NCBI GenBank assembly: GCA_903861115.1
Contig: CAIOTD010000141.1
Location: 1-53,756 of the forward strand
Length of the DNA stretch: 53,756 nucleotides
From: an uncultured Burkholderiales bacterium
Lineage (GTDB): Bacteria > Pseudomonadota > Gammaproteobacteria > Burkholderiales > Burkholderiaceae_C
Reading direction: 5' to 3'
The translations under genes and the position numbers were made by a program. The notes under the pieces are model-generated. The model had not been told where the DNA came from, ran no database searches, and was given only the letters and a program-made list of their open reading frames with translations. Below, one piece after another: positions 36,318 through 51,497 of this stretch (its first letter is position 1; each line of letters opens with the position of its first letter).

Positions 36318-36896
36318 TCATCGTTTGGACTGACGTCCTTTAAAATCCACAATCGGTGCCAGGCGAGCTTCTTTCAACTCGTCGAGCTTGAATGACAAGG
36401 CCTGCAAAGGAGCAGGCTCTTTTTTCTTACTGACCCGTTGTCCGGGTTTGGGTTTCGGCGCGTCACTCCAGACGATCTGCCACACCCCTTCAGCATCCGT
36501 GCTTTCCAGCACCCCTCTGAACTTCTTTCTCAACACGGAGGTCAAACCATTGGCTTGAGCCCCCATGGGGTTTTTAAGCGTCAGATCAATTTCTTGACCT
36601 GCAAAACGCAAAAAATCCATCTCTTTTCTCAAAGGCCGGTCAATCCCTGGGGAGGAGACCTCTAGCCTTTGGTAGGCAATTTCTTCGACCTCTAGGGTGA
36701 ACTGAAGTTGACGCGTGACCTTCTCACAGTCTTCAACGGTCACAAATTGCTCACCGCCCAAGGCCTCTTGTTCAGGTGTCCAAGGCAAATCAATGGTCAC
36801 ACGGAGCAATCCCCCTTGAGAGCGCTCAATCTCTACGAGCTCATAACCGAGCCCGGTCACAATTTGCTCAACAGTTTCTTGCAGTGCCAAAGTCAA
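36318..36896 (-). CDS. rimP: Ribosome maturation factor RimP
   Basis: A 192-residue 30S-assembly factor and first gene of the rimP-nusA-infB operon. Family segments are VEQIVTGLGYELVEIER, GGLLRVTIDLPW, VTVEDCEKVTRQLQFTLE, the diagnostic LEVSSPGIDRPLRKEMDF and FRGVLESTDAEG. No ATG is available near the front: TTG 36896 (GAAG about 5 bases upstream) or TTG 36890 would give the typical MALQ-like opening. The C-terminus has an extra Lys/Pro-rich insert (PKPKPGQRVSKKKEPAP). A strong terminator closes the previous operon about 70 bases upstream, so a promoter should lie in 36897-36966. Confidence 0.95.
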   Translation of the reverse strand: MTLALQETVEQIVTGLGYELVEIERSQGGLLRVTIDLPWTPEQEALGGEQFVTVEDCEKVTRQLQFTLEVEEIAYQRLEVSSPGIDRPLRKEMDFLRFAGQEIDLTLKNPMGAQANGLTSVLRKKFRGVLESTDAEGVWQIVWSDAPKPKPGQRVSKKKEPAPLQALSFKLDELKEARLAPIVDFKGRQSKR

Positions 36897-36966
36897 TCAC
36901 GCTTCATCTAAGTTCTTGCGCCCGTCCCAAACTCTTTTTGAGCTTGGGTTCAATTTTCAATAGACC

Positions 36967-36998
36967 AAAAAAAACGGGCGGTGAAAACCCGCCCGTTT
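36967..36998 (-). terminator. Rho-independent terminator after the exbD operon
   Basis: AAACGGGCGG (36972-36981) pairs with CCGCCCGTTT (36989-36998), with a 7-base loop. On the minus strand it is followed by eight T (36974-36967). It ends the tonB-exbB-exbD transcript and insulates rimP. Confidence 0.88.
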
Positions 36999-37152
36999 GG
37001 TCGTGAAGTCGATATTCTAACGGGTTTTTCTCTCAATGCCAAGAATGGACTTGTAAATATGTCGTGTTCTGACAAGGAAATTTTAGATTTTTACAACAAA
37101 AAGGCAGCTTAAAACGCTGGCGCTTGAAGATCGAAACCTTAATACGAAAGAA

Positions 37153-37623
37153 TTATTTTGAAAACTGCTCCGATCCCAAGACCCCAATTTTTTTCAAACC
37201 GTGTCTTTGCGCGCTCGCCATGACCATGATCACTGAGCCGTAACGGGTCTTGGCCGCAGCACGAATGTGAATCTCGGGTGCCGGCTCTTGGTGACGGAGT
37301 GCATCAAAGAGAGGTTCGAGCTCTCGGTTGTCAGACAGTGCTTTGCCGTTCCAAGACACCGTGTTGCTTGCATCAATCGTGATTTTGATGACCACGGGAT
37401 CGATCTTTTTGACTGGCGGCTGCGCCACAGGCATGTTCAAATTGACCGAATGCAATTGAGCGGGAATGGTGATGATCAGCATGATGATCAACACCAAAAG
37501 GACATCGATCAAGGGCGTGGTGTTGATGTCCATCATCACTTGAGGCTCTGGGTTGTGGGCGGGCTCAAAGCGCACTTTTTGTGCTCGTTTGAAGGCGCTG
37601 GATTGAAAGGGATCGATGAACAT
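37153..37623 (-). CDS. exbD: ExbD/TolR-family biopolymer transport protein (second copy)
   Basis: A 156-residue single-span inner-membrane protein. After a 32-residue N-terminal segment comes the conserved MMDINTTPLIDVLLVLIIML, whose intramembrane Asp carries protons through the ExbB-ExbD motor. The periplasmic domain follows (VVIKITIDASNTVSWNGKAL). The longer basic N-terminus distinguishes it from the neighbouring copy. It is the last gene of the TonB group; a strong terminator lies 155 bases beyond. Expected partner: TonB and ExbB, energising outer-membrane receptors that are not encoded here. Confidence 0.93.
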   Translation of the reverse strand: MFIDPFQSSAFKRAQKVRFEPAHNPEPQVMMDINTTPLIDVLLVLIIMLIITIPAQLHSVNLNMPVAQPPVKKIDPVVIKITIDASNTVSWNGKALSDNRELEPLFDALRHQEPAPEIHIRAAAKTRYGSVIMVMASAQRHGLKKIGVLGSEQFSK

Positions 37624-37655
37624 GGTGCTTTTTTTGTAGGATCTGGCTTGAGGCC

Positions 37656-38069
37656 TTATTGGGGTTGCGTGATGAAGCCCACTTTCGTCAACCCCAAACG
37701 CTGCAAAGCGTTCATCACCCGTCCCACGGACTCAAAATCTCCATTTGCATCCCCCCTGATTTGAACCTCAGGCTGGGGCGACTTCAAAGCATAGGGTCTG
37801 AGTTTTTTCATCAAATCGTCGCTCGAATTCATGAGCGCATCGTACAAAAAGATCTGCCCTTTTGCATTGACTGAAACGATGACATTTTCTGGCTTGCTCT
37901 CACGCACGACATTCTTCTCTTGCGGCAAAGACACCCTCACCGAGGTGGTGACCACTGGGATGGTGATCAAAAAAATGATCAACAAGACCAGCATCACGTC
38001 CACGAGGGGCGTGGTGTTGATTTGGCTGATCACGTCGTCCTCAGCGCTCTCGTTCAGTTGAATGGCCAT
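37656..38069 (-). CDS. exbD: ExbD/TolR-family biopolymer transport protein (first copy)
   Basis: A 137-residue single-span protein. QINTTPLVDVMLVLLIIFLIT holds the essential membrane Asp; the periplasmic domain ends with VGRVMNALQRLGLTKVGFI. I use ATG 38069 since the upstream TTG at 38075 adds only two residues. It is 32 bases before the second exbD copy and shares the TTPLxDVxLVL core, but the two differ elsewhere, so they are diverged paralogues. Two ExbD copies next to one ExbB occur in some beta- and gamma-proteobacteria. Confidence 0.93.
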   Translation of the reverse strand: MAIQLNESAEDDVISQINTTPLVDVMLVLLIIFLITIPVVTTSVRVSLPQEKNVVRESKPENVIVSVNAKGQIFLYDALMNSSDDLMKKLRPYALKSPQPEVQIRGDANGDFESVGRVMNALQRLGLTKVGFITQPQ

Positions 38070-38122
38070 ATGCAATCGGTTTTAATAAAGGGTGATGGAG
38101 AGCGGCGACGAAGGCAACCGAC

Positions 38123-38917
38123 TCATTTGGCATTGAGCACCGAGTGCAAATCTGAACCAAAGGCATTGACCTGGTCCACGATGAGTTTGTTTCTCCTGAC
38201 CAACCAGTTATAGCCGAGAACGGCCGGCACGGCCACGGCCAAACCCATGGCGGTCATGATCAAGGACTCGCCAACGGGACCCGCAACCTTGTCAATGGAA
38301 GCCTGTCCAGTCAAACCAATTTTCATCAAGGCGTTGTAGATGCCCCAGACTGTTCCAAAAAGCCCCACAAAGGGTGCCGTCGAGCCCACCGTTGCCAACC
38401 AAGACAAGCCATTTTGCAACTCCGACTGGATTTGCGACATGCCTCGCTGAAGCACCATGCTGAGCCAGACCTCTTTGTCAACGGGCGCCAAGATGCCTTT
38501 CTGAGGCGCGTTGGCGTCCAGTCCTGTTTGAACAAGAAAGCGAAAAGGACTCTTTTCGCCCAATGTGTGCAGACCTTCTTGTACAGAGTTTGCGAACCAA
38601 AAACGCTCTTTGGCCTCTTTGGCGTGCTCTAGGTAGCGACTTTGGTCGATCAATTTGGTCACGATCACATACCAAGAGCCCACGCTCATCACCATCAAAA
38701 TCAGCAAGGTGAGTTTGGCCACCCAGTCCGACTGCGCCAGCAAGGCCATGACGCCATAAGCCTCTAGGGCTGTATCCTGCGCGTTGTCTGTTGGAACGCT
38801 TGGGGCGCTGGGCGAGGTCTGGGCCATGGCCATGAAGGTGCCCAATGCACATTGGGCCCAGATGATCATTTTACCGACGGGGGAAAAACAGAGATGAAAG
38901 CGCATGGGGTGATTCAT
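38123..38917 (-). CDS. exbB: MotA/TolQ/ExbB proton channel protein
   Basis: A 264-residue ExbB with three membrane segments: WVAKLTLLILMVMSVGSWYVIV, WLATVGSTAPFVGLFGTVWGIYNAL and GESLIMTAMGLAVAVPAVLGY. The loop KIGLTGQASIDKVAGPVGESL is the diagnostic motif. The N-terminal 33 residues look like a cleavable signal segment ending near TFMAMAQ, as in long-form ExbB proteins. It couples proton flow to TonB with ExbD. Located between tonB and the first exbD with gaps of about 50 bases. Confidence 0.94.
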   Translation of the reverse strand: MNHPMRFHLCFSPVGKMIIWAQCALGTFMAMAQTSPSAPSVPTDNAQDTALEAYGVMALLAQSDWVAKLTLLILMVMSVGSWYVIVTKLIDQSRYLEHAKEAKERFWFANSVQEGLHTLGEKSPFRFLVQTGLDANAPQKGILAPVDKEVWLSMVLQRGMSQIQSELQNGLSWLATVGSTAPFVGLFGTVWGIYNALMKIGLTGQASIDKVAGPVGESLIMTAMGLAVAVPAVLGYNWLVRRNKLIVDQVNAFGSDLHSVLNAK

Positions 38918-38966
38918 AATGAAGTGAATAAAAGGGAGTTAAGGTGTATGTCTTGCAGGTCAAACG

Positions 38967-39620
38967 TCAGTCTTCCATCTTCCAGACATAGCGCAAGCTT
39001 GACCAACTGGCCTCGGGCTTGCCGTCAACCGTGGCGGGCTTGAATTGGCATTTGGACAAGGCCAACCGGGCCGCCTCATCGAGTCGCTTGTAGCCAGAGG
39101 ACTTCTCCACCTCTGACTCCAACACTTTCCCATCCACGCCAATGTGAAAGCGCAATTGCACCGTTCCTGACTCTTGAAATCGTCTTGAAGCCGATGGGTA
39201 AACGGGGGTTTCGCAGTTTTGGCTGGCATTGATCACGGCCGCGGTTCGTACGCTTGGAACGGGCGCTTGAGCGCTCACGGGCACATCAGCAGGCGCGGCA
39301 GGCTTTGGGGTGGAGGAGATCTGCGCAATGGCATTCACGGGTGCAGGCGCATTCAATGGGATCTCAACGGGCGGCACGTAGTCGGGCAAAGCCGACTTTT
39401 TAAGGGGGGTATTGACAGGAGGCGGCGGTGGTGGAGGCGGTAGATCGGGTTTGCTCTCTTCGATCAATTGCGCCTCGATGGGGGATTGAATGTGTTTGAC
39501 AAATCGATGGGCCAGGCCCGATTCGATGGCATAAAAGCCCAACAGATGCAAAGCAACAACCACGGCCAAACCCAAGCCATGTTTGCTCGTGGAGGTCTGG
39601 TGCTGTGCGAAGTCCATCAT
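38967..39620 (-). CDS. tonB: TonB energy transducer protein
   Basis: A 217-residue TonB. The N-terminal anchor (LGLAVVVALHLLGFYAI) is followed by a Pro-rich periplasmic spacer that opens with eight consecutive prolines, then a TonB C-terminal domain with YPSASRRFQESGTVQLRF, the VDGKVLESEVEKSSGYKRLD segment and ALSKCQFKPATVDGKP. A Cys pair (NCETP and SKCQF) may form a disulfide, as in many TonB domains. It starts 15 bases after the double ATPase stop, which ties it to the transport genes upstream. Confidence 0.94.
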   Translation of the reverse strand: MMDFAQHQTSTSKHGLGLAVVVALHLLGFYAIESGLAHRFVKHIQSPIEAQLIEESKPDLPPPPPPPPVNTPLKKSALPDYVPPVEIPLNAPAPVNAIAQISSTPKPAAPADVPVSAQAPVPSVRTAAVINASQNCETPVYPSASRRFQESGTVQLRFHIGVDGKVLESEVEKSSGYKRLDEAARLALSKCQFKPATVDGKPEASWSSLRYVWKMED

Positions 39621-39635
39621 GAGGCGCTGAATATA

Positions 39636-41579
39636 TCAAATTCTAGGAACGCAGGCGAGCAGTGACTGGGTGTACGGGTGTCTTGGTGAGTGCAAAACAT
39701 CCACCGCGCTGGCATGTTCAACCAAAAGACCTTCGTGCATCACGGCAACCTCGTGGGCCAAATAGGAGACGACGCTGATGTTGTGGGTGATCAGCAAATA
39801 ACTCACGCCCAAGCTTTCTTGCAACTCTCTGAGCAAATTCAAGATCTGCGCTTGAATGGAGACATCCAGCGCCGAGGTGGGCTCGTCGCAAATGATCAAG
39901 GAGGGTTTGACGGCCAAAGCCCTGGCAATGGCAATGCGTTGTCTCTGACCGCCCGAGAACTCGTGGGGGAAGCGTCGCAGGGCATCTTTGTGCAGCCCCA
40001 CCCGGTCGAGCAAGACATCGATATCAGAAAGCCTTTGATCTCGGTGCCACTCGGGGTGAAGGCTCTTCATGCCCTCTTCCAAAATGTCGATGATTCTCAT
40101 CCTTGGATTGAGGGATGCAAAGGGGTTTTGAAAAATGATTTGCATCTCACGTTTGGCTTGCAACTCGCGCTGGCGTCCTTGGTTCAAGACCTCAAGTCCC
40201 TTCAATCTGACTTGTCCGTGAACATCAGCACTTTTGCCCAAGACTTGTATCAAGGCTTTGGCCAATGAGGTCTTACCACACCCAGATTCACCCACCAAGG
40301 CCAAGGTTTTGCCTTGTTCGATGTCAAAGCTCACGCCCTTGACCGCTTCAAAAGCGCGCGGCGCTTGAAGCCATTGTTTCGCCAAAGGGTAAGACACGTG
40401 CAGCTCCCTCACCTCCAAAATCACGGGCCCATGGGATGGGGCGTGCACCAAAGAGGACTCGACTTGCAAGCCCTGGTCTTGCGTTGCAAACGACAAGGGC
40501 TGAGCAGGTTTTGCGCTGGGCGAGCCTGAAAGGGGCGTTGTAGGCTGGGGGACCCTGTGAGCCGCTTCGCCCGTCAAGCGCGTCGAGTTCTCACCCCCCT
40601 CTTGCGCCAATAGACACCGAACCCCACTCAGTCGACTCGCCTTGAATTCAAACATGGGCACCGCACGGCTTTCGCATTCAGGCATTTTTTGTGGGCAACG
40701 TGGTGCAAAACGACACGCACTGAATTCGCCCGTCAAGGGTGGAACCTGACCTTTGATGGCGGCCAAATCTTTGCCGCGACGCTCAAAGTCTGGCAAGGAG
40801 TCCATGAGCAACTTTGAATAGGGGTGCTGAGGCGCTTCAAAGAAATCTTTCGCGTCCCTCAGTTCGACGATTTCACCCGCGTACATCAACGCAACTCTGT
40901 GTGCCATGTCCTTGACCACAGCCAAGTCATGGGTGATGAGCATCAAAGACATCCCTCGCTCAGCTTGAAGGTCTTTAAGGAGTTTCAAGACCTGCGCTTG
41001 AAGCGTCACATCCAAGGCCGTGGTGGGCTCATCCGCAATCAACACATCGGGCTCGCTCACCAAGGCCATGGCAATCATGACACGCTGCAGTTGTCCCCCC
41101 GAAAACTCAAAGGGATACTGCTCAAAGCGCCTGGCGGGCTCACTCAAACCCACACGCTCAAGCCACTCAATGCAGCGCGCTTTGGCCTTCGCGGCAGGAA
41201 CGTCTTGGTGACACCTCAGCGCCTCGAGCATTTGATCCCCGATTCGCATCACAGGGTTCAAACTGCTCGCGGGCTCTTGAAAAATGATGGAGATGCGCCG
41301 ACCCCGAAAGGCTTGCATTTGCCGCTCTGACAATTGAAACAAATCGTCGCCCTTCAAGTGGACCACCCCATGGGTGATTTGAGCGACACCGGGCAAGAGT
41401 TGCATGAGGGCCAATGCGGTCATGGATTTGCCGCAACCCGACTCACCCACCAAGGCAAAGGTTTGACCGGCCTCGATTTCAAACGCCAATGCGCTGAGCG
41501 CCAAAGCCCAACCGCTTTGGGTGTACAAATGCATGGACAAGTCTTTGACGTCCAACACGGGGGGGGTGAAGCCTGTCAT
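39636..41579 (-). CDS. Peptide-type ABC transporter ATP-binding protein, fused double ATPase (YejF-like)
   Basis: A 647-residue protein with two complete ATPases. The first has Walker A GESGCGKS (45-52), a Q-loop, signature FSGGQLQRVMIAMAL and Walker B VLIADEPTTALD. The second has GESGCGKTSLAKAL, FSGGQRQRIAIARALA and LIICDEPTSALDVS. Between them lies the oligopeptide-type Cys motif CRFAPRCPQKMPECESRAVP and a 60-residue low-complexity linker. Fused peptide-transporter ATPases are known from YejF and GsiA, but this one is longer because of the linker. The start overlaps the permease stop by 4 bases (ATGA), and tonB follows closely. Confidence 0.92.
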   Translation of the reverse strand: MTGFTPPVLDVKDLSMHLYTQSGWALALSALAFEIEAGQTFALVGESGCGKSMTALALMQLLPGVAQITHGVVHLKGDDLFQLSERQMQAFRGRRISIIFQEPASSLNPVMRIGDQMLEALRCHQDVPAAKAKARCIEWLERVGLSEPARRFEQYPFEFSGGQLQRVMIAMALVSEPDVLIADEPTTALDVTLQAQVLKLLKDLQAERGMSLMLITHDLAVVKDMAHRVALMYAGEIVELRDAKDFFEAPQHPYSKLLMDSLPDFERRGKDLAAIKGQVPPLTGEFSACRFAPRCPQKMPECESRAVPMFEFKASRLSGVRCLLAQEGGENSTRLTGEAAHRVPQPTTPLSGSPSAKPAQPLSFATQDQGLQVESSLVHAPSHGPVILEVRELHVSYPLAKQWLQAPRAFEAVKGVSFDIEQGKTLALVGESGCGKTSLAKALIQVLGKSADVHGQVRLKGLEVLNQGRQRELQAKREMQIIFQNPFASLNPRMRIIDILEEGMKSLHPEWHRDQRLSDIDVLLDRVGLHKDALRRFPHEFSGGQRQRIAIARALAVKPSLIICDEPTSALDVSIQAQILNLLRELQESLGVSYLLITHNISVVSYLAHEVAVMHEGLLVEHASAVDVLHSPRHPYTQSLLACVPRI

Positions 41580-43045
41580 TTGGACCTCCCTGCAAAGAGG
41601 CGGGTTTTGGGGTCAAAAGCATCGCGCACGGCATCGGCCAGTAAATTGGCACTGATCACCAACAAGAACATGAACACAAAGGCCGTGACCAAGGTCCACC
41701 AGACCACTGGGGTCGCGGCCAACTCATCTCTGGCCGTGTTGATCATCACGCCAAAGCTGGCCGTGTTGGGATCCACGCCAACGCCCACATACGACAAGAC
41801 CGCTTCGGACAAAATAAAGCCAGAGAATTGCATCACGCAATTGATCAATACCAAATGCATCAAATTGGGTGCAATGTGGGACAAGAGCATCCTGGGCGTG
41901 CTCACCCCAAAGGCTTTCGCCGCTTGGATGTACTCCAGTTCTCGCAACTTGAGCGTCTCACCCCGAACCAATCGACACAGGCCGGTGAATGAGGTGAGCG
42001 CCAAGATGACACAAAGAAAGAACAGCCGTGCATCCGATCTTTGAAGAGCTGAATCGAAGTAACCGGTGTGTGAATCGATGAAGACTTGAAGCATCAAAAC
42101 GGTGGCGGCGATGAGCAGCACATCGGGGATCGAGGCGAGCAAGGTGTAAATGTATTGAATGAACTCATCCACTGCACCTCGAAAGTAACCCGCCACAATC
42201 CCCAAGGCCAGGGCCACGGGCATGATCACCAGTGTGGTGAGTGTGCCGATGACCCAAGCGGTGCGGATGCTTTTGAGGGCGATCAAAAGAACGGATTTGC
42301 CCGTCTGATCGGTGCCAAAGACGTGGTAATGGCTCGATAAATCGATCACCCACATGATGGCGAAGGTGATCAAAAAACACATCAAAAGAGCTGTTCTGAT
42401 GGGCCAAGAGGCTCGCCCGCTTGAGAAATGCTGGAACAGCTGACCCATGCTTTGGGCTTGTGGGTTGCTCAACAGCCAAGTCAAGGCAAGCACCACCAAG
42501 CCCAACACCGCATTGAACCCAAGGGCCTTGAGGAAAGCACGAAGACTCAAAGACCAGCAATCTTGGATGTGATCGGACGTGTTGTCTTTCAAATGGGCCC
42601 CGCCAAATTGAAGCCTGGGATAGTCACGCACGGTGAGCCCCCCTCGCTCAAAGGTCTCTTTTTTAAAGCCCACGATGGCCAAGGGCGCCGAGTAACTTCT
42701 CTCTCTCGTGTCGGACAAAGGCTGCAGCCAGAGGTCCAGAATAGATTTGGGTTCGGCACTGCTCGTTTTTTGCGCAGCTTTTTCGCCTTGTTTGGATTGA
42801 ACGCTTGGCGCACTGGTGGCGCTGTCTTGAAGCACAGACAGGGGCCTGAGATGAATCGAGTCCAACAAGGCGACGATCAAAAAGAGCATCAACACCATGC
42901 TGCTGGCCACCGAAATGGGCCGCTTAAACGCCCTTGACCAAGAGTCTTTGAGGGGTGGGGTCTTGAACACATAAACGACATACGCCGCCACACAGAGCAC
43001 CAGTGCGAAGAGAAAAACATCGATCAATAAAAAGACAATTTGCAT
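41576..43045 (-). CDS. DppC/YejE-type ABC permease with large N-terminal extension
   Basis: A 489-residue permease. The conserved core begins near 235 with HVFGTDQTGKSVLLIALKSI and contains the cytoplasmic EAA-like loop YIQAAKAFGVSTPRMLLSHI. The C-terminal half GVGVDPNTASFGVMINTA also fits. The first 200 residues add two extra membrane segments (IDVFLFALVLCVAAYVVYVF and SVASSMVLMLFLIVALLD), a periplasmic-looking stretch of about 120 residues and a further hydrophobic segment. Standard DppC/YejE proteins have about 280-340 residues. Overlaps the ATPase by 4 bases; the other permease ends 68 bases upstream. Inner membrane. Confidence 0.9.
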   Translation of the reverse strand: MQIVFLLIDVFLFALVLCVAAYVVYVFKTPPLKDSWSRAFKRPISVASSMVLMLFLIVALLDSIHLRPLSVLQDSATSAPSVQSKQGEKAAQKTSSAEPKSILDLWLQPLSDTRERSYSAPLAIVGFKKETFERGGLTVRDYPRLQFGGAHLKDNTSDHIQDCWSLSLRAFLKALGFNAVLGLVVLALTWLLSNPQAQSMGQLFQHFSSGRASWPIRTALLMCFLITFAIMWVIDLSSHYHVFGTDQTGKSVLLIALKSIRTAWVIGTLTTLVIMPVALALGIVAGYFRGAVDEFIQYIYTLLASIPDVLLIAATVLMLQVFIDSHTGYFDSALQRSDARLFFLCVILALTSFTGLCRLVRGETLKLRELEYIQAAKAFGVSTPRMLLSHIAPNLMHLVLINCVMQFSGFILSEAVLSYVGVGVDPNTASFGVMINTARDELAATPVVWWTLVTAFVFMFLLVISANLLADAVRDAFDPKTRLFAGRSK

Positions 43046-43113
43046 GAGGGGCCGTCTTGTGGGTCAGCAGTTTTGGTGGGGGAATGCAGCTTCTTGGGTC
43101 ATGGGTGTGCGCA

Positions 43114-44091
43114 CTATTGCAAACGAATTCTCGGGTCTGCCCAGGCGTAACACACTTCGGTCAAGATCAGTCCCAAGATGTAGAGCACCGAGCCCACAAA
43201 GACCATGGAGCGCACGATGGCAAAGTCTTGGGCTCCGATGGCCTCGATCAAATAGCTCCCAAGACCGGGGATGGAGAAGAAGGACTCCACCAACAAACTG
43301 CCCATGAAGAGCAAGGGGATCACCGCAACGCTGGAGCTGATGATCGGAATCAAGGCGTTCCTCAAGACGTGTGAGAACAACACTTGGACCTCGCTCAAGC
43401 CCTTGGCTTTGGCCGTTCTGACATAGTCTTTGTCAATTTCTTCTAAAAAGACACTTCTGTTAAAGCGCACCTCGCCACCGATTCTAGAGAGCACCGAGAT
43501 CACGATGGGTAAACACAGAAAGCGCCAAGTCTCTGCCCCCCAAGTAAAGCCAGAAACGGGCAACCATTGCAGCACCTTGGACAGGAGGAATTGCCCCGCA
43601 ACAATAAAGAACAGGGCCGAGATGGACATCAACACCACACAAAAAATGGTACCCCAAAAGTCCAAATAACTGCCCCTGAAAAAGGCCAAAACAAGGGCCA
43701 TGAAAATCGAGATGCCCATGCCCAGCACAAAGGAGGGCAAAGCGAGCATCAAACTCGCGGGCGCGCGTCGCAAGATCTCGGTGCTGATGTCTCGACCGCC
43801 GTCAGAGGCGCCAAAGGAGAAGGTAAAGAGTTGTCTTGAGGTTTGAAAGAACAAGGTTTGGGTCAAACGGTCCACACCTTGGGCCTTCTCCTCGAAGAAA
43901 AGTGCCTTGTCGTAGCCGCGCTCGATTTTCCATTTCTCAACCGCTTGCGGGGTGATGCGTTTGCCACCGAGTTGCATGCGAGCCATGTCATCGGGTGTAT
44001 TGACTTTAAAAAAGAGCACAAAGGTGAGCACATTGATGCCCATCAAAATCAACAAGCCGTAGCCCAGTTTACGGATCAAAAAACCCATCAT
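43114..44091 (-). CDS. DppB/YejB-type ABC permease
   Basis: A 325-residue permease. It opens MMGFLIRKLGYGLLILMGIN and has a periplasmic loop with the YejB-like NTPDDMARMQLGGKRITP region, then the EAA loop DKDYVRTAKAKGLSEVQVL and a C-terminal SIPGLGSYLIEAIGAQD segment. The start is taken at ATG 44091 because it overlaps the SBP stop by 4 bases; the upstream in-frame stretch is inside the SBP gene and non-homologous. It forms the heteromer with the following 489-residue permease. Confidence 0.92.
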   Translation of the reverse strand: MMGFLIRKLGYGLLILMGINVLTFVLFFKVNTPDDMARMQLGGKRITPQAVEKWKIERGYDKALFFEEKAQGVDRLTQTLFFQTSRQLFTFSFGASDGGRDISTEILRRAPASLMLALPSFVLGMGISIFMALVLAFFRGSYLDFWGTIFCVVLMSISALFFIVAGQFLLSKVLQWLPVSGFTWGAETWRFLCLPIVISVLSRIGGEVRFNRSVFLEEIDKDYVRTAKAKGLSEVQVLFSHVLRNALIPIISSSVAVIPLLFMGSLLVESFFSIPGLGSYLIEAIGAQDFAIVRSMVFVGSVLYILGLILTEVCYAWADPRIRLQ

Positions 44092-46448
44092 TTGAAGTCT
44101 CCAAGCGTTCTTTGCTGCGCCTCTTGCATGCCATCCATCACCGAGCGGTCTTGGCGCTTTCTCCACACCCGAAGGGCAGGCCAAAGCAAGAGCGCCACGA
44201 CCAAGGGGATCAAAAGGAAAGGCCAGACCGCGGGGCGGTTCCATTCGCTGATCTTTTGCACTCTGAGCGCTGGATCGATGTTCAAGTAGGACATCTGGTC
44301 TCGAATGATGTTGGAGGGCTTGCCGTTTTTGACCCACTGGTGATAGGCCCCCCCGTACTCCTCCGACCAACCAAAGAGCATGGGCGCCTCCTCTTGCATG
44401 ATGCGCATCATTTGTTGAATGAGGGAGGCACGCTCAGGGGTGTTTTCCATGTCCTTCATTTTTTCAAACAAGTGATCGTATTGTGCATTTTCAAAATTGG
44501 AAGAATTTTCTCCGCCAAATTTGGCCTTTGAATTGGGGCCATACAGCAGGAACAAAAAATTTTCCGGATCGGGGTAATCTGCAAGCCAGCCCCAAAAGTA
44601 AAACTGCGCCGAGCCTTTTCGCATTTTGTCTTGAAAGCGGTTGTAGTCGGTATTTCTCACCTCCAACTGGAGGTTGAGTTTTGCAAACTGTTTGCTCACC
44701 CAGTCGATGCGCGTTTTGGCACCTGGGCCAACCCCTTGGGTGTCGTAATTGATCACCAAAGCCTGGCCTGTCTCTTTGTCAACACCGCCCGGATAGCCCG
44801 CCTCGGCCAGCAAGCGTTTGGCCTCCTCGATCGATCGACGCTTGTATCGCCCTGCCCCATCCGACTGAAAAACCACGGGATTAAAAGGCATGGCATCGTT
44901 GCCAAAGAGGCCCGGGACCACCACAGAGTGATTGACTTGGGCGCGTGAATTTTCAAAGATGGAGACGTACTCTTCAAAATCAAAGGCAATGGAGATGGCT
45001 TGTCTGAGCTTTCTGTTTCTTGCGGCTTGCTCGGGTGTTTTTCCAGCGCCCACCACCGGATCCAACCAATTAAAGCCGTAGTGCCAAAACCCCACTTGAA
45101 TGGTGGTGGGCAATTGGATCTTGCGCTCAAGCAACTCTTTGGACAAACCCGTTCCATCTTGAATGGAGACTTGGTAAGCGATGCCGGGCTCGCCTCTTTC
45201 CATTTGAGGCATGTCGTAATAGCCTTGAATGAATTTGGTGGCAACGGAGGTGCCCTCCTTCTCACGTGTGCTGATGATCTTGTCCAAAAGAGGCATCGTC
45301 TTGCCGCAGTCTTTTAGCAAACCCAAAGTGCGGTCTTCATCGGAGCCTTCACAGGGATAAGGCTCACCTCGGTAGTTGGGGTTTTTAGACAAAACCATCC
45401 GAGCATTGGCGTCGTGTTCGGTGAGCATGAATGGGCCCGTTCCAACGGGCCAAGTGTTGGCACTGAGGTTTTTCTTGGCCATGCCCTCTTGGGCATAAAA
45501 GGCATCCACCTCCCAGGCCACGGGTGCAAAGAACGTCATGGCCAACCAATATTTGAACTGAGGATACAGGCCTGAAATCTTGATCTGCAAAGTGTAGGGA
45601 TCGATCACTTTCACGCCTTCAAAGTCGTGCTGCCTGAAGTCCATCCATGGCAGCGGCGACGCGGATCCAGCAGGTTTTGAAAGCGCAGACTTCAAACGCA
45701 AATTCTCCTTTTGAATCTGCTCGCCAAAGCGCTCAAAGCCGACAATCTTGGAGGACAAAAAGCCAAATGCGGGTGAATTGATGCGCGGTGAGGCCAAGCG
45801 TTTGATGGCATAGGCGTAGTCGTAGGCCGTGAGCTCCCTCGTCCCCATGGCGTTGAAGTCCCATGGAGAATGGATCTCTTTCAAATCACTGGGGCTGAGC
45901 TTTAAGTTGACCCATGCACCTTGTGGGTCTTTGTAAAAAGCCGGATGGGGCTGAAACAAAATACCGGGCTTGACTTTGAGTTCAAACACGGTCTGGGCGA
46001 TTTTTCCTCGTGTTTCTTCGCCCAAGTCTTTCAAGGCATTGGGGTCTATCTTTAAGTCTTTTCCCTCTTTGTCGAAAAAGGTCAATCGGGGCATGCTTTG
46101 AAGCGTGCGAGGCTCCAACGCATAGGGGCGCTTCAGATAGTGGTACTTGAGGGGGGGCTCATAGACCGCATAGGTCCAGGGTGTTTCATTGTTGCTGTAG
46201 GAGGACGCCGAGTCCAAGTACTTGGGATCCTCTTGATAAGAGGTGAGCAAATACGGTTTCTCCAACCACTCTTTAGGCACAGGCGCGTTAAAGAGGCCCC
46301 TGAGTGGGGCCACCCCGGTGTTCGAACTTTGTACACCCAGACCCACCTCAAAGGCGACCAAGCCAGAGAGAAAAGTCAAGACCACCAGCAGCAAAGCCGA
46401 GTGTTTTTGGGCCCTGTGCTTCAAAAGACGCCAGCCTTGAAGGATCAC
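44088..46448 (-). CDS. Peptide-type ABC substrate-binding protein with apparent double membrane anchor
   Basis: A 786-residue SBP_bac_5-class binding protein (Dpp/Opp/Yej type). Visible motifs include KYWLAMTFFAPVAWEVDAFY, the NTWPVGTGPFMLTEHDANAR segment, LRQAISIAFDFEEYV and FWGWLADYPDPENFL. Unusually, an N-terminal hydrophobic segment (about 18-36) without a clear cleavage site is matched by a C-terminal membrane helix (about 741-762, WPFLLIPLVVALLLWPAL) and a basic 24-residue tail. Typical relatives have 500-610 residues and are free or lipidated. The start is GTG 46448 (overlap GTGA with the protease stop). Ligand probably peptides. Confidence 0.9.
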   Translation of the reverse strand: MILQGWRLLKHRAQKHSALLLVVLTFLSGLVAFEVGLGVQSSNTGVAPLRGLFNAPVPKEWLEKPYLLTSYQEDPKYLDSASSYSNNETPWTYAVYEPPLKYHYLKRPYALEPRTLQSMPRLTFFDKEGKDLKIDPNALKDLGEETRGKIAQTVFELKVKPGILFQPHPAFYKDPQGAWVNLKLSPSDLKEIHSPWDFNAMGTRELTAYDYAYAIKRLASPRINSPAFGFLSSKIVGFERFGEQIQKENLRLKSALSKPAGSASPLPWMDFRQHDFEGVKVIDPYTLQIKISGLYPQFKYWLAMTFFAPVAWEVDAFYAQEGMAKKNLSANTWPVGTGPFMLTEHDANARMVLSKNPNYRGEPYPCEGSDEDRTLGLLKDCGKTMPLLDKIISTREKEGTSVATKFIQGYYDMPQMERGEPGIAYQVSIQDGTGLSKELLERKIQLPTTIQVGFWHYGFNWLDPVVGAGKTPEQAARNRKLRQAISIAFDFEEYVSIFENSRAQVNHSVVVPGLFGNDAMPFNPVVFQSDGAGRYKRRSIEEAKRLLAEAGYPGGVDKETGQALVINYDTQGVGPGAKTRIDWVSKQFAKLNLQLEVRNTDYNRFQDKMRKGSAQFYFWGWLADYPDPENFLFLLYGPNSKAKFGGENSSNFENAQYDHLFEKMKDMENTPERASLIQQMMRIMQEEAPMLFGWSEEYGGAYHQWVKNGKPSNIIRDQMSYLNIDPALRVQKISEWNRPAVWPFLLIPLVVALLLWPALRVWRKRQDRSVMDGMQEAQQRTLGDFK

Positions 46449-49129
46449 AAACCACTCCTTTGAATGCTGGCTTTCAAAGACTCGCTCAATGTGTTGATGG
46501 CATCGAGGTAGTGCGCCTGCGTTTCAGGATCGAGCTTTTGCCTGTTCGAGGCGCGACTGAGCTGGGACAATAAATTTCTTGCGTTTTGTCTGATCAGTCC
46601 TGCCGCCTCGGGGGGGAGGCCTTTGGAGGAGCGAAGGAGCATGGCGCTCATGCGCTGGAGGTGTTCCTTTTGTAAATTGCGTCTAAGGAGCTCGACGCGC
46701 TTGCCCAGGCGAGCCTCTATCCAGATCGTGTCTTGAATGCGGGTATAAATTTCAGACAAGCCCAAAGTGTCGCTGCCCTTGGACTGGCCGTTTGTTTTGT
46801 CAAGCTTCAATTGCGACTCGCTCACCCGCTGGGCCAGGCGTTCAGAGTACAAGGCGTCCAAGACGGTCCGTTGCACGCCAAGAACATTGTTCAAGACAGA
46901 TACGGCGGAGCTTTGCGCGCTTGGATCCCCGCGGCGTGAGGCCCGCTCAAATTGATCGATGGCCAGTGAGCTCAAAAGTTGAGGAGAGAACTCAAAGGCG
47001 CGCTGCCCAAAGAAGGCCTGCTCGATCAAGACCAAGGCCTCGCGTTGTTCACTTGCTGAGACGGGCTCATAGACCGCTTGACCAAACCCAGCTCGCACAC
47101 GTCGGACTCTTTCACCACCAATGTATTTGACCACCAGGGGGGCGATTTGATTCAAAGGACGAAAGCCACTTAAAAAACTGCGCGTGAGTCGCTCAAAACT
47201 TTCGCCCTTTTCAAGGTTCAAGTTTTGCAGTCTCACCCAAAGTTCTTGACTCAACTGGACCCTTTTTCTGTAATAGGCCAACGGCTTGGCCCCCAAATCG
47301 AATCGATTGACCCAAGGATCCACACTGCCCGATCCCTCTGAGGTGTCTTCATCGCTGGCGTAGGCGAGTTCGACTTGAGTGCTTTTTGAAGCAATGTCTT
47401 GAAGGGATTGAGACTCGACGCTTGGATCGAAGGGTTTGTAGCCGTATTCAATGGCCCAGTAATCGTAGGGACCCAAGGTGCTCATCACGTACTCACCTTG
47501 AGGCTTTTGAGCCAAGGCAAAATTAAACGGTGTGTAGTCCATGACCGAGGCGGTGATGCCTCGTTCACGCGTGAAGCTTGCGTCTTGCAATTGCTCCAAA
47601 TCGTAAGCCGCGGAGGAGAGAAAATTGTGCCTCAGTCCCAGGGTGTGTCCTACTTCATGCATGACCACGTCCTTGATGTAGGCTTGGGCCAACTTTTCCG
47701 CGTCTCCAGAGGCCATGGGCTCTCCCCTGGCTGTCAACAAGTCTTGGGCAAAGTCAAATTCATAGGCCAATTGGTCCATCAACAGACACGAAGAGCTTGC
47801 ATCGCGGCCCATGGCGGTGGGCCCGACGTCTTCAAGCATTTGTCGGCGCGCACTTCTAGCGAAGACATCTGAGATGCCGATATCGGCATCTAAAATTTCA
47901 CCTGTTCTTGGATCGGCTTGCGACGGTCCAATGGCAAAACCGATGTCTGAACCCGTGAACCACCGGACCGATGCGTGCTGTGCATCCATGGTGTTGAAGC
48001 TGTCTTGATCGCCCTGCTCTTTGACCACCAAAGCGCCCATCAAGCCGATCTTCTCAAAAGCTTTGTTCCACTCCAAAATGCCCGCGGCCACTGAGGCCTT
48101 GTACTGAGGGGGAATGTTTTTGTCGAGCCAATAGACAATGGGCTTTATGACGGGTGAACTCGAAAGCGTTGGGTCCGTCTTTTCAAGGCGCCATCGTTTG
48201 ATCACGTGCACACGGGACTTGGGTTTGAGGTCGGTGCTGTAGTCAAAGTGACCTTGGGTGAAATACCCTACCCGCTCATCGGCCAATCGGGGCAACATGG
48301 GTGCGGAGGGCAACTGTTTGAAGTTGTAATAAAAATGCACGAACAGGCTTCTAGGATCGGGCACATTTCTAGGCATTGGGGTTGCGGTGCTCGCACTGGG
48401 TGTCAAAGGGGGCGCGGCCAATTTAGAGACGAAATAATGCGCTTTGACCTCTAAGGCGGTCAGCGCCATGGATTGCTCACTTGAGAAAAAGCTCGTGTTT
48501 TTGCTGTCCAAAGAAAAGCCCATGCGATAGGCCATGTCAAGCTGGGTGGTGTAGCCCGCAATGTCGGCAAAAAGCAGGCTGCTGGCATCGATCAACAAGG
48601 CTTGATCGGTTGTTCTAGGTTGCGCGGCAATGTCGGCCGAACCCAGCAAGCTTTCTGAGTAGGACTCCTGCACAAATCGAGCCTCTAAGCTGTTCTCGGG
48701 TGCAAACGCCTCTTCATTTTTTGCCAGCAGTTGAATGCGCGTGCCTGAGCGGTGGAAGTAGGCAATGTAATGACTGCCCATTTGGGAGCCATACAGACCT
48801 CTTTCGCCAACAGATCTTGGGATGTTGACGCTAAAGAAAAAAGGGTGATCGAGTTGTTCCGGTTTGATGGAGAGCCAGACCTTCTCCTCTTTGACATAGA
48901 GATCAAAGTAACCCGGTTTTCTTTCACTCTCTTTGGTGACTTCATCAAAAAGTTTGAGCGCGGCCAAATTGCCTTTGATTGGCGCGACCTTGGGCGCCTT
49001 TTCTTTTGTTGTACTGTCCTCTTTTGCAAGCCTTGTGATCGCCTTCGTGTCCAATGCGCTTGGCTCATGCAGCTCAGTCAAATTGAGTGCAAAAGACACT
49101 TGTAGGAAACACAAAGGGACAAGCCCCAT
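46445..49129 (-). CDS. Exported zinc-dependent metalloprotease (DUF5117/DUF4953-like)
   Basis: An 894-residue protein beginning with a short hydrophobic leader (MGLVPLCFLQVSFA) that looks like a signal peptide. The zinc motif HEVGHTLGLRHNF is at about 491-503 (HExxHxxGLRHN), with a Met-turn candidate SVMDYTPFNFA about 50 residues on. The N-terminal half has GERGLYGSQMGSHYIAYFHR-type segments seen in large uncharacterised zinc-dependent metalloproteases (DUF5117-DUF4953 class). The C-terminal 300 residues are helical and Arg/Leu-rich. I start at ATG 49129; a TTG at 49192 would add 21 residues. It overlaps the SBP gene by 4 bases and heads the operon; its likely site is the periplasm or outside the cell. 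Confidence 0.85.
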   Translation of the reverse strand: MGLVPLCFLQVSFALNLTELHEPSALDTKAITRLAKEDSTTKEKAPKVAPIKGNLAALKLFDEVTKESERKPGYFDLYVKEEKVWLSIKPEQLDHPFFFSVNIPRSVGERGLYGSQMGSHYIAYFHRSGTRIQLLAKNEEAFAPENSLEARFVQESYSESLLGSADIAAQPRTTDQALLIDASSLLFADIAGYTTQLDMAYRMGFSLDSKNTSFFSSEQSMALTALEVKAHYFVSKLAAPPLTPSASTATPMPRNVPDPRSLFVHFYYNFKQLPSAPMLPRLADERVGYFTQGHFDYSTDLKPKSRVHVIKRWRLEKTDPTLSSSPVIKPIVYWLDKNIPPQYKASVAAGILEWNKAFEKIGLMGALVVKEQGDQDSFNTMDAQHASVRWFTGSDIGFAIGPSQADPRTGEILDADIGISDVFARSARRQMLEDVGPTAMGRDASSSCLLMDQLAYEFDFAQDLLTARGEPMASGDAEKLAQAYIKDVVMHEVGHTLGLRHNFLSSAAYDLEQLQDASFTRERGITASVMDYTPFNFALAQKPQGEYVMSTLGPYDYWAIEYGYKPFDPSVESQSLQDIASKSTQVELAYASDEDTSEGSGSVDPWVNRFDLGAKPLAYYRKRVQLSQELWVRLQNLNLEKGESFERLTRSFLSGFRPLNQIAPLVVKYIGGERVRRVRAGFGQAVYEPVSASEQREALVLIEQAFFGQRAFEFSPQLLSSLAIDQFERASRRGDPSAQSSAVSVLNNVLGVQRTVLDALYSERLAQRVSESQLKLDKTNGQSKGSDTLGLSEIYTRIQDTIWIEARLGKRVELLRRNLQKEHLQRMSAMLLRSSKGLPPEAAGLIRQNARNLLSQLSRASNRQKLDPETQAHYLDAINTLSESLKASIQRSGL

Positions 49130-49234
49130 AAAACGATAGGACAGTCGATCTAAGAGTGATAGCAAAAGCGAAGCTCCGAAAAAGTGGTTCAAATGTAAAT
49201 TGGCCCCATATTACCCAAAATAGCCAGGGCGCTC

Positions 49235-49271
49235 AAAAAAAACGGGCCATAAAGTCCAGGGCTTTGGGGCC
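49235..49271 (-). terminator. Rho-independent terminator after the ring-opening amidohydrolase
   Basis: On the minus strand GGCC-CC-AAAG pairs with CTTT-AT-GGCC around CCCTGGA, followed by C-G-T8 (49242-49235). It separates the amidohydrolase gene from the metalloprotease operon that starts at 49129. Confidence 0.7.
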
Positions 49272-49293
49272 ATTAGATCACGGCAAGGCCTTC

Positions 49294-50409
49294 TCAAGCC
49301 TTGTAAAGCACACAAACCGGCCCGCCTCCTGCGGGTCCTTGGTGCTCAGCCCCGCCGGAGACATACAAAGCGGTCTCACCCGTGATGCTGGCCAAGACCC
49401 CGCCCACTGCAGCACGTGCGTGTCGAGTCGCATTGATATCGGAGTCGTCGAGCATGGTGTGGCGCAGGCCTCTGATTTGACCACTGGGCGAGGCCTCCGC
49501 TTTGGCCAGGACGTTCACAAGCTTGAACGGTTCAGAATGTTTGGCCGCACCAAAACACGGCAGAGCGGTTTTGGCAAAGAGCTCGATCACCGCCGCACCA
49601 TCGATGGCGTCTTGCATCACGGTGTGATCGATCATGAGTTCTGAGCTAGAGGCCTTGGAGATCCCCAGCACCAAGACGACATTGTTTTCTAACTCAATGC
49701 CGGCCGAGGCCGAGGCCCTGGCTGAAAACAAGTCCATGTTCTGCAGCACGACGTCATCTCTGAGAAGTTCGGCCCGAACTTCCCCCAAAGCCAAAGCCAC
49801 GCCCAGGGCTGAAGCCCCCCTGGAATAAGCCATGGACTCATAGGTCTCATGGGTCACCACCGTTTTGGAGGCTTTCTGAGCGGCTTGGATTTTATCCATG
49901 GTGAGCAAAGGGCATTTGATTTGAACGAAGTGAACATCGTGCGTTGACTCGATGTGCGCTTCACGCATGGCATGCTGAACAGCCCGTGCCGTCTCTTCAA
50001 TTTGCGCCATGCGCCCCATCTCCCAGGGCTCGAATGCCCGGGTTTGTGCGACACCAATGGCCAATCGAGGTGCGTTGCTTTGTGCGGGACGCTCTACCCA
50101 TTGTCTTGTGAACACGGTGAAATGGGGCGACAAGACCCCTTCTGTGCCGCCCGACATGACCAAAGCGACTCGGTGGTGGGCCTCCTCTGGCGTGCAATCC
50201 AAGTGGGTCGAAAGATAGTGACACCAGGCCATGCTCGCAAAATTACGTGTGTGGTCATTGACACACCCATTGCCTTCGGTCTTGCCCATCACGGCCACAA
50301 TCTCCTTGGGATTGAGCAGACCTTGTTCGACCAAAGCTTTGACCCCACTCAAATCGGAGGGGCTTTGGGCCAAAATGCGGTGAACACGAACGATTTGATG
50401 GGCAGCCAT
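49294..50409 (-). CDS. Ring-opening amidohydrolase (cyanuric acid amidohydrolase/barbiturase family)
   Basis: A 371-residue member of the AtzD/TrzD/barbiturase (Toblerone-fold) family, which opens cyanuric acid to carboxybiuret or barbiturate to ureidomalonate. The three-fold repeat is visible with one Lys-Ser set per repeat: K43 (MGKTEGNG) with S86 (MSGGTEG), K165 (QIKCPLL) with S233/S235 (ARASASAG), and K303 (LAKAEAS) with S351 (YVSGGAE). GGGPVCVLY ends the protein. No atzE/atzF/biuret or urea genes are nearby, so the nitrogen pathway is incomplete here. Cytosolic, no signal peptide. Which of the two substrates it takes is not decided by these motifs. Confidence 0.9.
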   Translation of the reverse strand: MAAHQIVRVHRILAQSPSDLSGVKALVEQGLLNPKEIVAVMGKTEGNGCVNDHTRNFASMAWCHYLSTHLDCTPEEAHHRVALVMSGGTEGVLSPHFTVFTRQWVERPAQSNAPRLAIGVAQTRAFEPWEMGRMAQIEETARAVQHAMREAHIESTHDVHFVQIKCPLLTMDKIQAAQKASKTVVTHETYESMAYSRGASALGVALALGEVRAELLRDDVVLQNMDLFSARASASAGIELENNVVLVLGISKASSSELMIDHTVMQDAIDGAAVIELFAKTALPCFGAAKHSEPFKLVNVLAKAEASPSGQIRGLRHTMLDDSDINATRHARAAVGGVLASITGETALYVSGGAEHQGPAGGGPVCVLYKA

Positions 50410-50693: not shown

Positions 50694-51497
50694 ATGGGTC
50701 AAAGAACCGGATTTTTAAGTGGCAAGAAGCTCTTGATCACAGGCGTGCTCTCTAACCGCTCCATTGCTTACGGCATCGCCAAGGCTTGCTTTAACCAAGG
50801 CGCTGAGTTGGCTTTTAGCTATGTGGGTGAAAGATTCAAGGACAGAATCACTGAGTTTGCCAAGGAATTTGATTCGACCTTGATCTTTGACTGTGATGTG
50901 GGCCAAGATGAGCAAATTGAAGCCATGTTCAGCGAACTGTCAAAAACCTGGGGCCAGTTTGATGGCTTTGTGCACAGCATCGGTTTTGCGACCCGCGAAT
51001 CCATTTCAGGAGATTTCTTAGATGGCTTGAGTCGCGAGGGTTTCAAAATCGCTCACGACATCAGTGCTTACAGCTTTCCAGCCATGGCAAAAGCCGCCTT
51101 GCCTTATTTGAACGACAAAGCCGCTCTTTTGACCTTGTCTTATTTGGGCTCGATCAGAAGTGTCCCCAACTACAACACCATGGGGTTGGCCAAGGCGTCT
51201 TTAGAAGCCTCGGTGCGTTATTTGGCCGAGTCCTTGGGCTCGAGAGGCAGAGGGTTCAGAGCCAATGGCATCAGTGCGGGCCCCATCAAAACCTTGGCAG
51301 CCAGTGGCATCAAAGGATTTGGCAAAATATTGAGTGTGGTTGAACAAAATGCCCCCATACGTAGAAATGTGACGATCGAAGATGTCGGCAATGTTGCCGC
51401 ATTCTTAATGAGCGACTTGGCTGCAGGCGTGAGTGCTGAGATCACTTATGTGGATGGCGGATTTAGCCAGGTCATGGGTGGCAGTGCAGAGGAATGA
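50694..51497 (+). CDS. fabI: Enoyl-[acyl-carrier-protein] reductase (NADH), FabI
   Basis: A 267-residue FabI that performs the last reduction of each fatty-acid elongation cycle. It opens [21 protein letters not shown] (cofactor-binding loop of FabI), has [18 protein letters not shown], the catalytic pair Tyr/Lys in [17 protein letters not shown], and [16 protein letters not shown], the segment contacting triclosan in E. coli FabI. The AGGA 6 bases before ATG 50694 fixes the start. A terminator follows at 51521. Monocistronic, divergent from the ring amidohydrolase. Confidence 0.96.

Follow-up and report, generated by a model that had tools for sequence, protein, structure and literature searches.

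Organization of the nine-gene row

The DNA analysed here (the window) is contig CAIOTD010000141.1 of an uncultured Burkholderiales bacterium (assembly GCA_903861115.1), taken at its full length of 53,756 nt. It is contig C141 of a 2.79 Mb draft genome in 200 contigs, and its closest named relatives are Burkholderiales metagenome assemblies. Nine genes lie in a row on its minus strand, encoding an exported protease that is likely a metzincin, an Opp/Dpp-type ATP-binding cassette (ABC) importer and a TonB-ExbB-ExbD motor, in the order in which a preceding sequence-only reading had placed them. That reading had also named a lack of conserved linkage in relatives as evidence against a single system; the association of the importer and its substrate-binding protein (SBP) with TonB genes is recurrent, whereas the protease is mostly unlinked. 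The features are as follows.

50694..51497, plus strand: fabI (enoyl-ACP reductase, by Pfam), a flank outside the system that marks the conserved importer locus in the order
46445..49165, minus strand: exported protease, likely metzincin (DUF5117 + DUF4953), TTG start proposed, HExxHxxGxxH at residues 503-513, Met-turn M542
44088..46448, minus strand: family-5 SBP with hydrophobic N-terminal signal/anchor and C-terminal membrane segment (SBP_bac_5, E 7e-49)
43114..44091, minus strand: importer permease B (BPD_transp_1, E 8e-31), start checked, its ATG overlapping the SBP stop by 4 bases
41576..43045, minus strand: importer permease C with long N-terminal extension and nine hydrophobic segments (BPD_transp_1, E 7e-23, residues 279-482)
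39636..41579, minus strand: fused two-domain importer ATPase of Dpp/Opp type (two ABC_tran and two oligo_HPY stretches)
38967..39620, minus strand: TonB (TonB_C, E 5e-16)
38123..38917, minus strand: ExbB (MotA_ExbB, E 3e-30)
37656..38069, minus strand: ExbD, first copy (E 3e-27), ATG at 38069
37153..37623, minus strand: ExbD, second copy (E 4e-23)
36972..36998, minus strand: intrinsic terminator of ten pairs, closing the row upstream of rimP

The 4-base overlaps at the protease/SBP, SBP/permease and permease/ATPase junctions and the 15-base gap between the ATPase gene and tonB were found as claimed, and the remaining intergenic gaps, counted from annotated open reading frame starts, are 68, 49, 47 and 32 bases (claimed range, 32-68). 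Of the two flanking terminators proposed earlier, the 3' one is strong (shuffle z -5.7 for the surrounding stretch), and beyond it lie rimP-nusA-infB-rbfA-truB-bipA. The upstream one (49235-49271) did not appear in a consensus scan; the region folds only moderately (shuffle z -1.9), and a terminator there is doubtful. At the ATPase-tonB junction, where a promoter or terminator had been named as evidence against a single system, the scan found no promoter-like or terminator-like site. Across 36800-49400, promoter-like matches numbered 4 against 6.0 expected by chance, and terminator-like matches 19 against 18.2. The row may be co-transcribed.

The SBP_bac_5, two BPD_transp_1 and ABC_tran/oligo_HPY matches all exceed the Pfam gathering scores and make up the domain set of an Opp/Dpp-type importer; TonB_C, MotA_ExbB and two ExbD, the components of the motor, are likewise above the Pfam cut-offs. 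The SBP has 786 residues with one hydrophobic segment at each end, and among solved sequences it is closest to heme-binding protein A, OppA and DppA. Dpp-type importers also serve in heme uptake. In NCBIfam, the SBP and permeases fall below the cut-offs of every family listed (the best 25 at most), and membership in YejABEF was rejected (YejF model, 518 bits against a cut-off of 834; YejB, 99 against 445). A C-terminal membrane segment is present in 44 of 47 SBP homologues checked, and such a doubly tethered binding protein is unusual.

Conservation of the importer-TonB linkage

In a family sample of 150 genomes, 42 carry the SBP; of the 41 besides the window genome, 40 loci were retrieved (G267, at a contig end, was left out). 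The counts below refer to 38 family loci; L163 and L199, in which no ATPase was called, lie outside them. Genes and their starts in relatives were called by our own procedure, and receptor, ExbB, ExbD and TonB calls were made with in-house profiles from 9, 6, 8 and 5 sequences, respectively. In the adjoining same-strand run, a TonB-dependent receptor is present in 27 of the 38 loci, a motor gene in 21, and either in 31. Of the seven loci with neither, three are cut short by a contig end within 3 kb of the ATPase; in L178, a receptor and motor follow past one opposite-strand gene, and in L200 a divergent receptor lies upstream. The fullest family order is tadA-like deaminase, LD-carboxypeptidase, SBP, permease, permease, ATPase, receptor, tonB-like, exbB, exbD, exbD and TPR protein, of which many loci hold just a part. 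In 32/38 loci, the gene immediately upstream of the SBP is of LD-carboxypeptidase (S66) type (one representative Pfam-checked).

The gene next after the ATPase is a same-strand receptor in 25 of the 36 family loci with sequence beyond the ATPase. By chance this is expected in about 0.6%, an estimate that was derived from 343 Plug matches in 12 genomes (~62 Mb) with 0.95 genes per kb assumed and that ignores phylogeny; since the loci share descent, any p-value from this comparison comes out too small. The 12 genomes have from 6 to 70 receptors each. Importer-adjacent receptors are spread over several separate clades, and two motor gene orders occur there. Pfam was searched for 10 genomes in which a receptor had been called at the importer, and at least 9 of them have a Plug match at that place; the TonB-like protein of L190, the one checked, has no Pfam match at 1e-5. 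Four loci (L164, L167, L176 and L179) are receptor-free as in the window, with tonB directly after the ATPase at gaps of 572-642 bp. Genes for Asp/Asn beta-hydroxylase or 2OG-Fe(II) oxygenase were observed between receptor and tonB in several family loci (L185/L231 and L191/L244).

The SBP tree shows an old importer whose inheritance has been largely vertical. Outgroups of the order are followed by the window's genus and then by the other family members, apart from two misplaced long branches, namely the same-family L200 among the outgroups and the same-order L047 beside L161/L162. Within the window's genus, a protease-bearing clade of four lies beside a protease-free clade of five. In three genomes of the latter (G005, G021 and G032), a receptor with a Pfam barrel, plus Plug where the contig allows, is encoded directly upstream of the SBP, at the position of the window's protease; G026 gave no receptor match at that site. 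The G034 locus retains a 99-codon receptor remnant between fabI and the SBP (L041:3548-3844, plus strand), a decayed copy of the sister-genome receptor that is 88% identical to the end of that of G005.

A second Opp-type importer, whose SBP is ~25% identical to that of the window, shows a similar association in further families of the order. In genus g22 it occurs with tonB-exbB-exbD-exbD and an M3 peptidase bearing a signal-like N-terminus (judged by eye); in all seven sampled g22 genomes, the M3 and ExbB genes share a strand and are at most 5 kb apart, the full gene order having been read in four, and three further genomes of g22's family gave no M3 match. The second importer is also accompanied by a receptor, motor, M3 and S9 peptidases in G043, by a receptor, ExbB-like and ExbD-like genes and M3 in G154, and by S9-type peptidases, receptors and motor in G074 and G157. 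In G058 and G180 it lies beside fabI, and no TonB genes were found in the stretch read. In an order-wide sample of 150 genomes, the second-subfamily SBP and ExbB were both present, at the cut-offs used, in 17 genomes, and within 20 kb on one contig in seven (four from g22). Because of the 31 family loci, the receptors of three sister species and this second importer subfamily, the coupling of importer and TonB system is well supported, and the earlier proposal that the two belong together holds.

The protease

A GGAG followed by an 8-base spacer and TTG is conserved in relatives G018 and G029, so translation of the protease probably begins with the TTG at 49165 rather than the ATG at 49129. 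The HExxHxxGxxH motif and the Met-turn methionine are invariant in 38/38 selected homologues, and this catalytic motif, together with a metzincin-like predicted structure, makes assignment to the metzincin fold class likely. No PDB match to the model at E <= 0.001 was returned by Foldseek (VIA-align re-examined Foldseek's own matches), no solved relative was found by sequence with a four-sequence profile at E up to 1, and a literature search for DUF4953/DUF5117 returned nothing.

The nine-gene row is complete only in the window genome, L070 and G018 (L036), and conservation of the composition as a whole was rejected. In G029 and L072 the protease adjoins the importer, which is truncated by the contig end. 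L070 has the four-base protease/SBP overlap; as a conserved sign of coupling this overlap was rejected, a short gap being found instead in G018 and G029. Directly upstream of the protease in the window is a gene for an AtzD/TrzD-type ring-opening amidohydrolase (49294-50409, minus strand), followed by fabI on the plus strand; it stays with the row in L070 and G018, and was not found at that place in G029. At two distant loci (L117 and L135), a protease homologue lies ~2 kb downstream of another Opp-type importer. In Undibacterium (L092-L094), the protease homologue is followed at ~600 bp by a same-strand receptor, and another receptor lies upstream on the opposite strand.

Proposed function and alternative explanations

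We see about an even chance that the locus is a TonB-energised oligopeptide uptake system with a lineage-specific protease, belonging to a gene group that recurs in Burkholderiales. A receptor in the outer membrane, encoded at another place in the genome, would admit peptides, driven by the TonB-ExbB-ExbD of the row. The exported metzincin would cut the admitted peptides in the periplasm, and the doubly membrane-tethered SBP would pass the products to the two permeases and the fused ATPase, to be imported as nutrient. Judged from its domains and neighbours, the importer presumably transports peptides; a peptide substrate is favoured because M3 and S9 peptidases occur with the second importer and an LD-carboxypeptidase-type gene adjoins most family SBPs. 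More tentatively, a receptor, TonB-ExbB-ExbD-ExbD, a TPR protein and a doubly tethered SBP with its Opp-type importer may form a widespread Burkholderiales unit, assembled independently several times, in which exchangeable exported peptidases (M3, S9 or metzincin) would do the trimming.

Several observations weigh against the proposed uptake system. The protease was found beside this importer in five genomes only, and among 47 named protease homologue loci flanked by 5 kb or more on each side, an importer is nearby in two and a receptor in three. In G029, the TonB cassette is on another contig from the protease-importer pair. In the ExbB tree, the window's protein clusters with cassettes from its genus, five of them from SBP-less genomes, and apart from the seven importer-linked cassettes of other genera; this is compatible with a separate joining, and plain vertical descent by genus predicts the same. 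In 21 of the 25 family loci with a receptor next after the ATPase, the gap between the two is 218-663 bp, so they may be separate transcripts. For the second subfamily, SBP and ExbB are >20 kb apart or on different contigs in the other 10 of the 17 genomes. Outside the family, 14 same-order genomes gave a strong SBP match, of which 12 were read (G042 and G060 were left out; L046 covers only 7.7 kb, and some importer genes beside the SBP were unrecognised in L051, L052 and L053). No receptor was detected beside the SBP in any of the 12 loci, which argues that the importer does not require one; in L047, ExbB/ExbD-like genes lie on the opposite strand.

The receptor is also hard to place in the window genome itself. 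The receptor profile recovered only three of the seven Plug-positive receptors of this genome; therefore, the absence tests were rerun with 16 receptor queries including all seven, and the results were unchanged (0/12 loci outside the family, 3/47 protease loci and none in the window). The genome, which had been suggested as the place to look for the receptor, has seven receptors and four TonB_C matches, and none of the seven is an obvious partner for the row. The only one related to the receptor of G005 (E <= 1e-10, 36%) is encoded in a GH28/altronate-dehydratase locus with its own motor, which makes the receptor the weakest link. Of the single receptor-protease-importer system proposed earlier, therefore, the joining of importer and TonB stands, but a cognate receptor was not found, and the protease as an integral part is weakly supported; it looks like a loose part, an addition specific to this lineage.

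In a rival explanation, the nine genes are neighbours rather than a system, a general-purpose TonB-ExbB-ExbD cassette and an independent protease having been juxtaposed in one clade with an old housekeeping peptide importer by fabI. Outside the family, the importer does adjoin fabI with no receptor detected (fabI is the divergent neighbour of the SBP in 9/12 loci), five same-genus genomes (G003, G009, G010, G011 and G033) have the TonB cassette with no match to this SBP, and the protease is usually unlinked. In addition, the linkage of the row in G018 is not discriminating, because the flanks, among them fabI and rimP-nusA-infB, are just as conserved in order there. However, recurrence across most family loci, in sister species and with a different importer subfamily is hard to obtain by chance, and we regard mere juxtaposition as unlikely.

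The LD-carboxypeptidase-type gene upstream of most family SBPs could instead point to recovery of murein peptides, in which the importer would take cell-wall peptides, the LD-carboxypeptidase would act on them and the TonB part would reclaim fragments lost outside. As outlined in a report on Agrobacterium, the Yej importer and YepA import muropeptides (PMC9790009), and the weak solved relatives of the SBP include a murein peptide-binding protein of the periplasm. However, the window's row is without an LD-carboxypeptidase gene, and in other genera that gene adjoins the tadA-like deaminase gene and may be a mere old neighbour. Metzincin, M3 and S9 peptidases would also suit proteins better than murein, and murein recovery seems improbable to us.

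Least probable is iron or metal acquisition, in which receptor and TonB would admit heme, a peptide siderophore or an iron protein and a Dpp-type importer would move heme or a peptide-metal complex: heme-binding protein A is the closest solved sequence of the SBP, six receptors tested match heme, B12 and siderophore models with every score below cut-off, and some loci have oxygenase or hydroxylase genes between receptor and tonB, but of eight receptors checked, seven have what we take to be the FRAP box, a widespread motif, and only one what we take to be the NPNL box. The Fus system of ferredoxin uptake, as outlined in PMC7593965, also couples a TonB homologue with a protease, but the recognised enzymes linked to the present loci are mostly peptidases.

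Comparison with known systems

The TonB-energised peptide uptake proposed here follows the general plan outlined for siderophores and B12, in which a receptor and TonB-ExbB-ExbD are combined with a specific ABC transporter (PMC3400609). The nearest described composition is the Fus operon of Pectobacterium, which, in the outline given by PMC7593965, comprises the FusA receptor, the TonB homologue FusB, the periplasmic M16 protease FusC and the putative ABC transporter FusD. In both cases, TonB-driven outer-membrane uptake, a protease and an ABC transporter are joined, in Fus within one operon. By that outline, the window differs in that its protease is a DUF5117/DUF4953 protein of likely metzincin type rather than M16, that it has a complete Opp/Dpp-type importer including the SBP, plus ExbB and two ExbD, and that its row is without a receptor gene, receptors adjoining the importer in relatives. 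Because Fus already combines receptor, TonB homologue, periplasmic protease and putative ABC transporter, the earlier remark that no operon of such composition had been described needs a qualifier: the exact combination of Opp-type importer and metzincin is absent from the matches listed. Among those matches, at the level of titles and abstract openings and with subscription journals mostly outside the scope, no Burkholderiales TonB motor or receptor was linked to an Opp-type importer and a peptidase.

With the Opp, Dpp and Yej importers, that of the window shares SBP_bac_5, two BPD_transp_1 permeases and a fused double ATPase; it differs in the length and C-terminal membrane segment of its SBP and in its TonB linkage. 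The tonB-exbB-exbD-exbD order is that of the importer-free cassettes in same-genus genomes, but in the window the cassette starts directly behind the importer ATPase. The same four-gene arrangement occurs in Xanthomonas. Porphyromonas RagAB, a TonB-dependent uptake system that is implicated in protein use in the account of PMC11817032, is similar in that respect, whereas the inner-membrane step in the window's system would be an ABC importer.

The family-wide importer-receptor-TonB locus is of greater interest than the nine-gene row of the window. To our knowledge, the substrate of most TonB-dependent receptors of environmental Proteobacteria is not known. The reproducible link of one receptor position with a peptide-type ABC importer, joined in some lineages by peptidases, offers a testable substrate prediction for many of them, and points to how freshwater Burkholderiales may feed on dissolved protein.

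Other TonB-linked loci

Three further arrangements were observed. In the window genome, L056 (G000:C93:38001-51121) contains a receptor, a GntR regulator, altronate dehydratase, exbB-exbD-exbD, a TonB_C match and GH28, and is probably a TonB-driven pectin-oligosaccharide locus. In L039 (G029:C211), a receptor, glycerophosphodiester phosphodiesterase (GDPD), tonB, exbB, exbD and exbD lie in one row, a possible TonB-driven phosphodiester uptake locus. Meanwhile, G043 has two tonB-exbB-exbD-exbD cassettes (L061 and L062) ~200 kb apart, the ExbB proteins of which are nearly identical.

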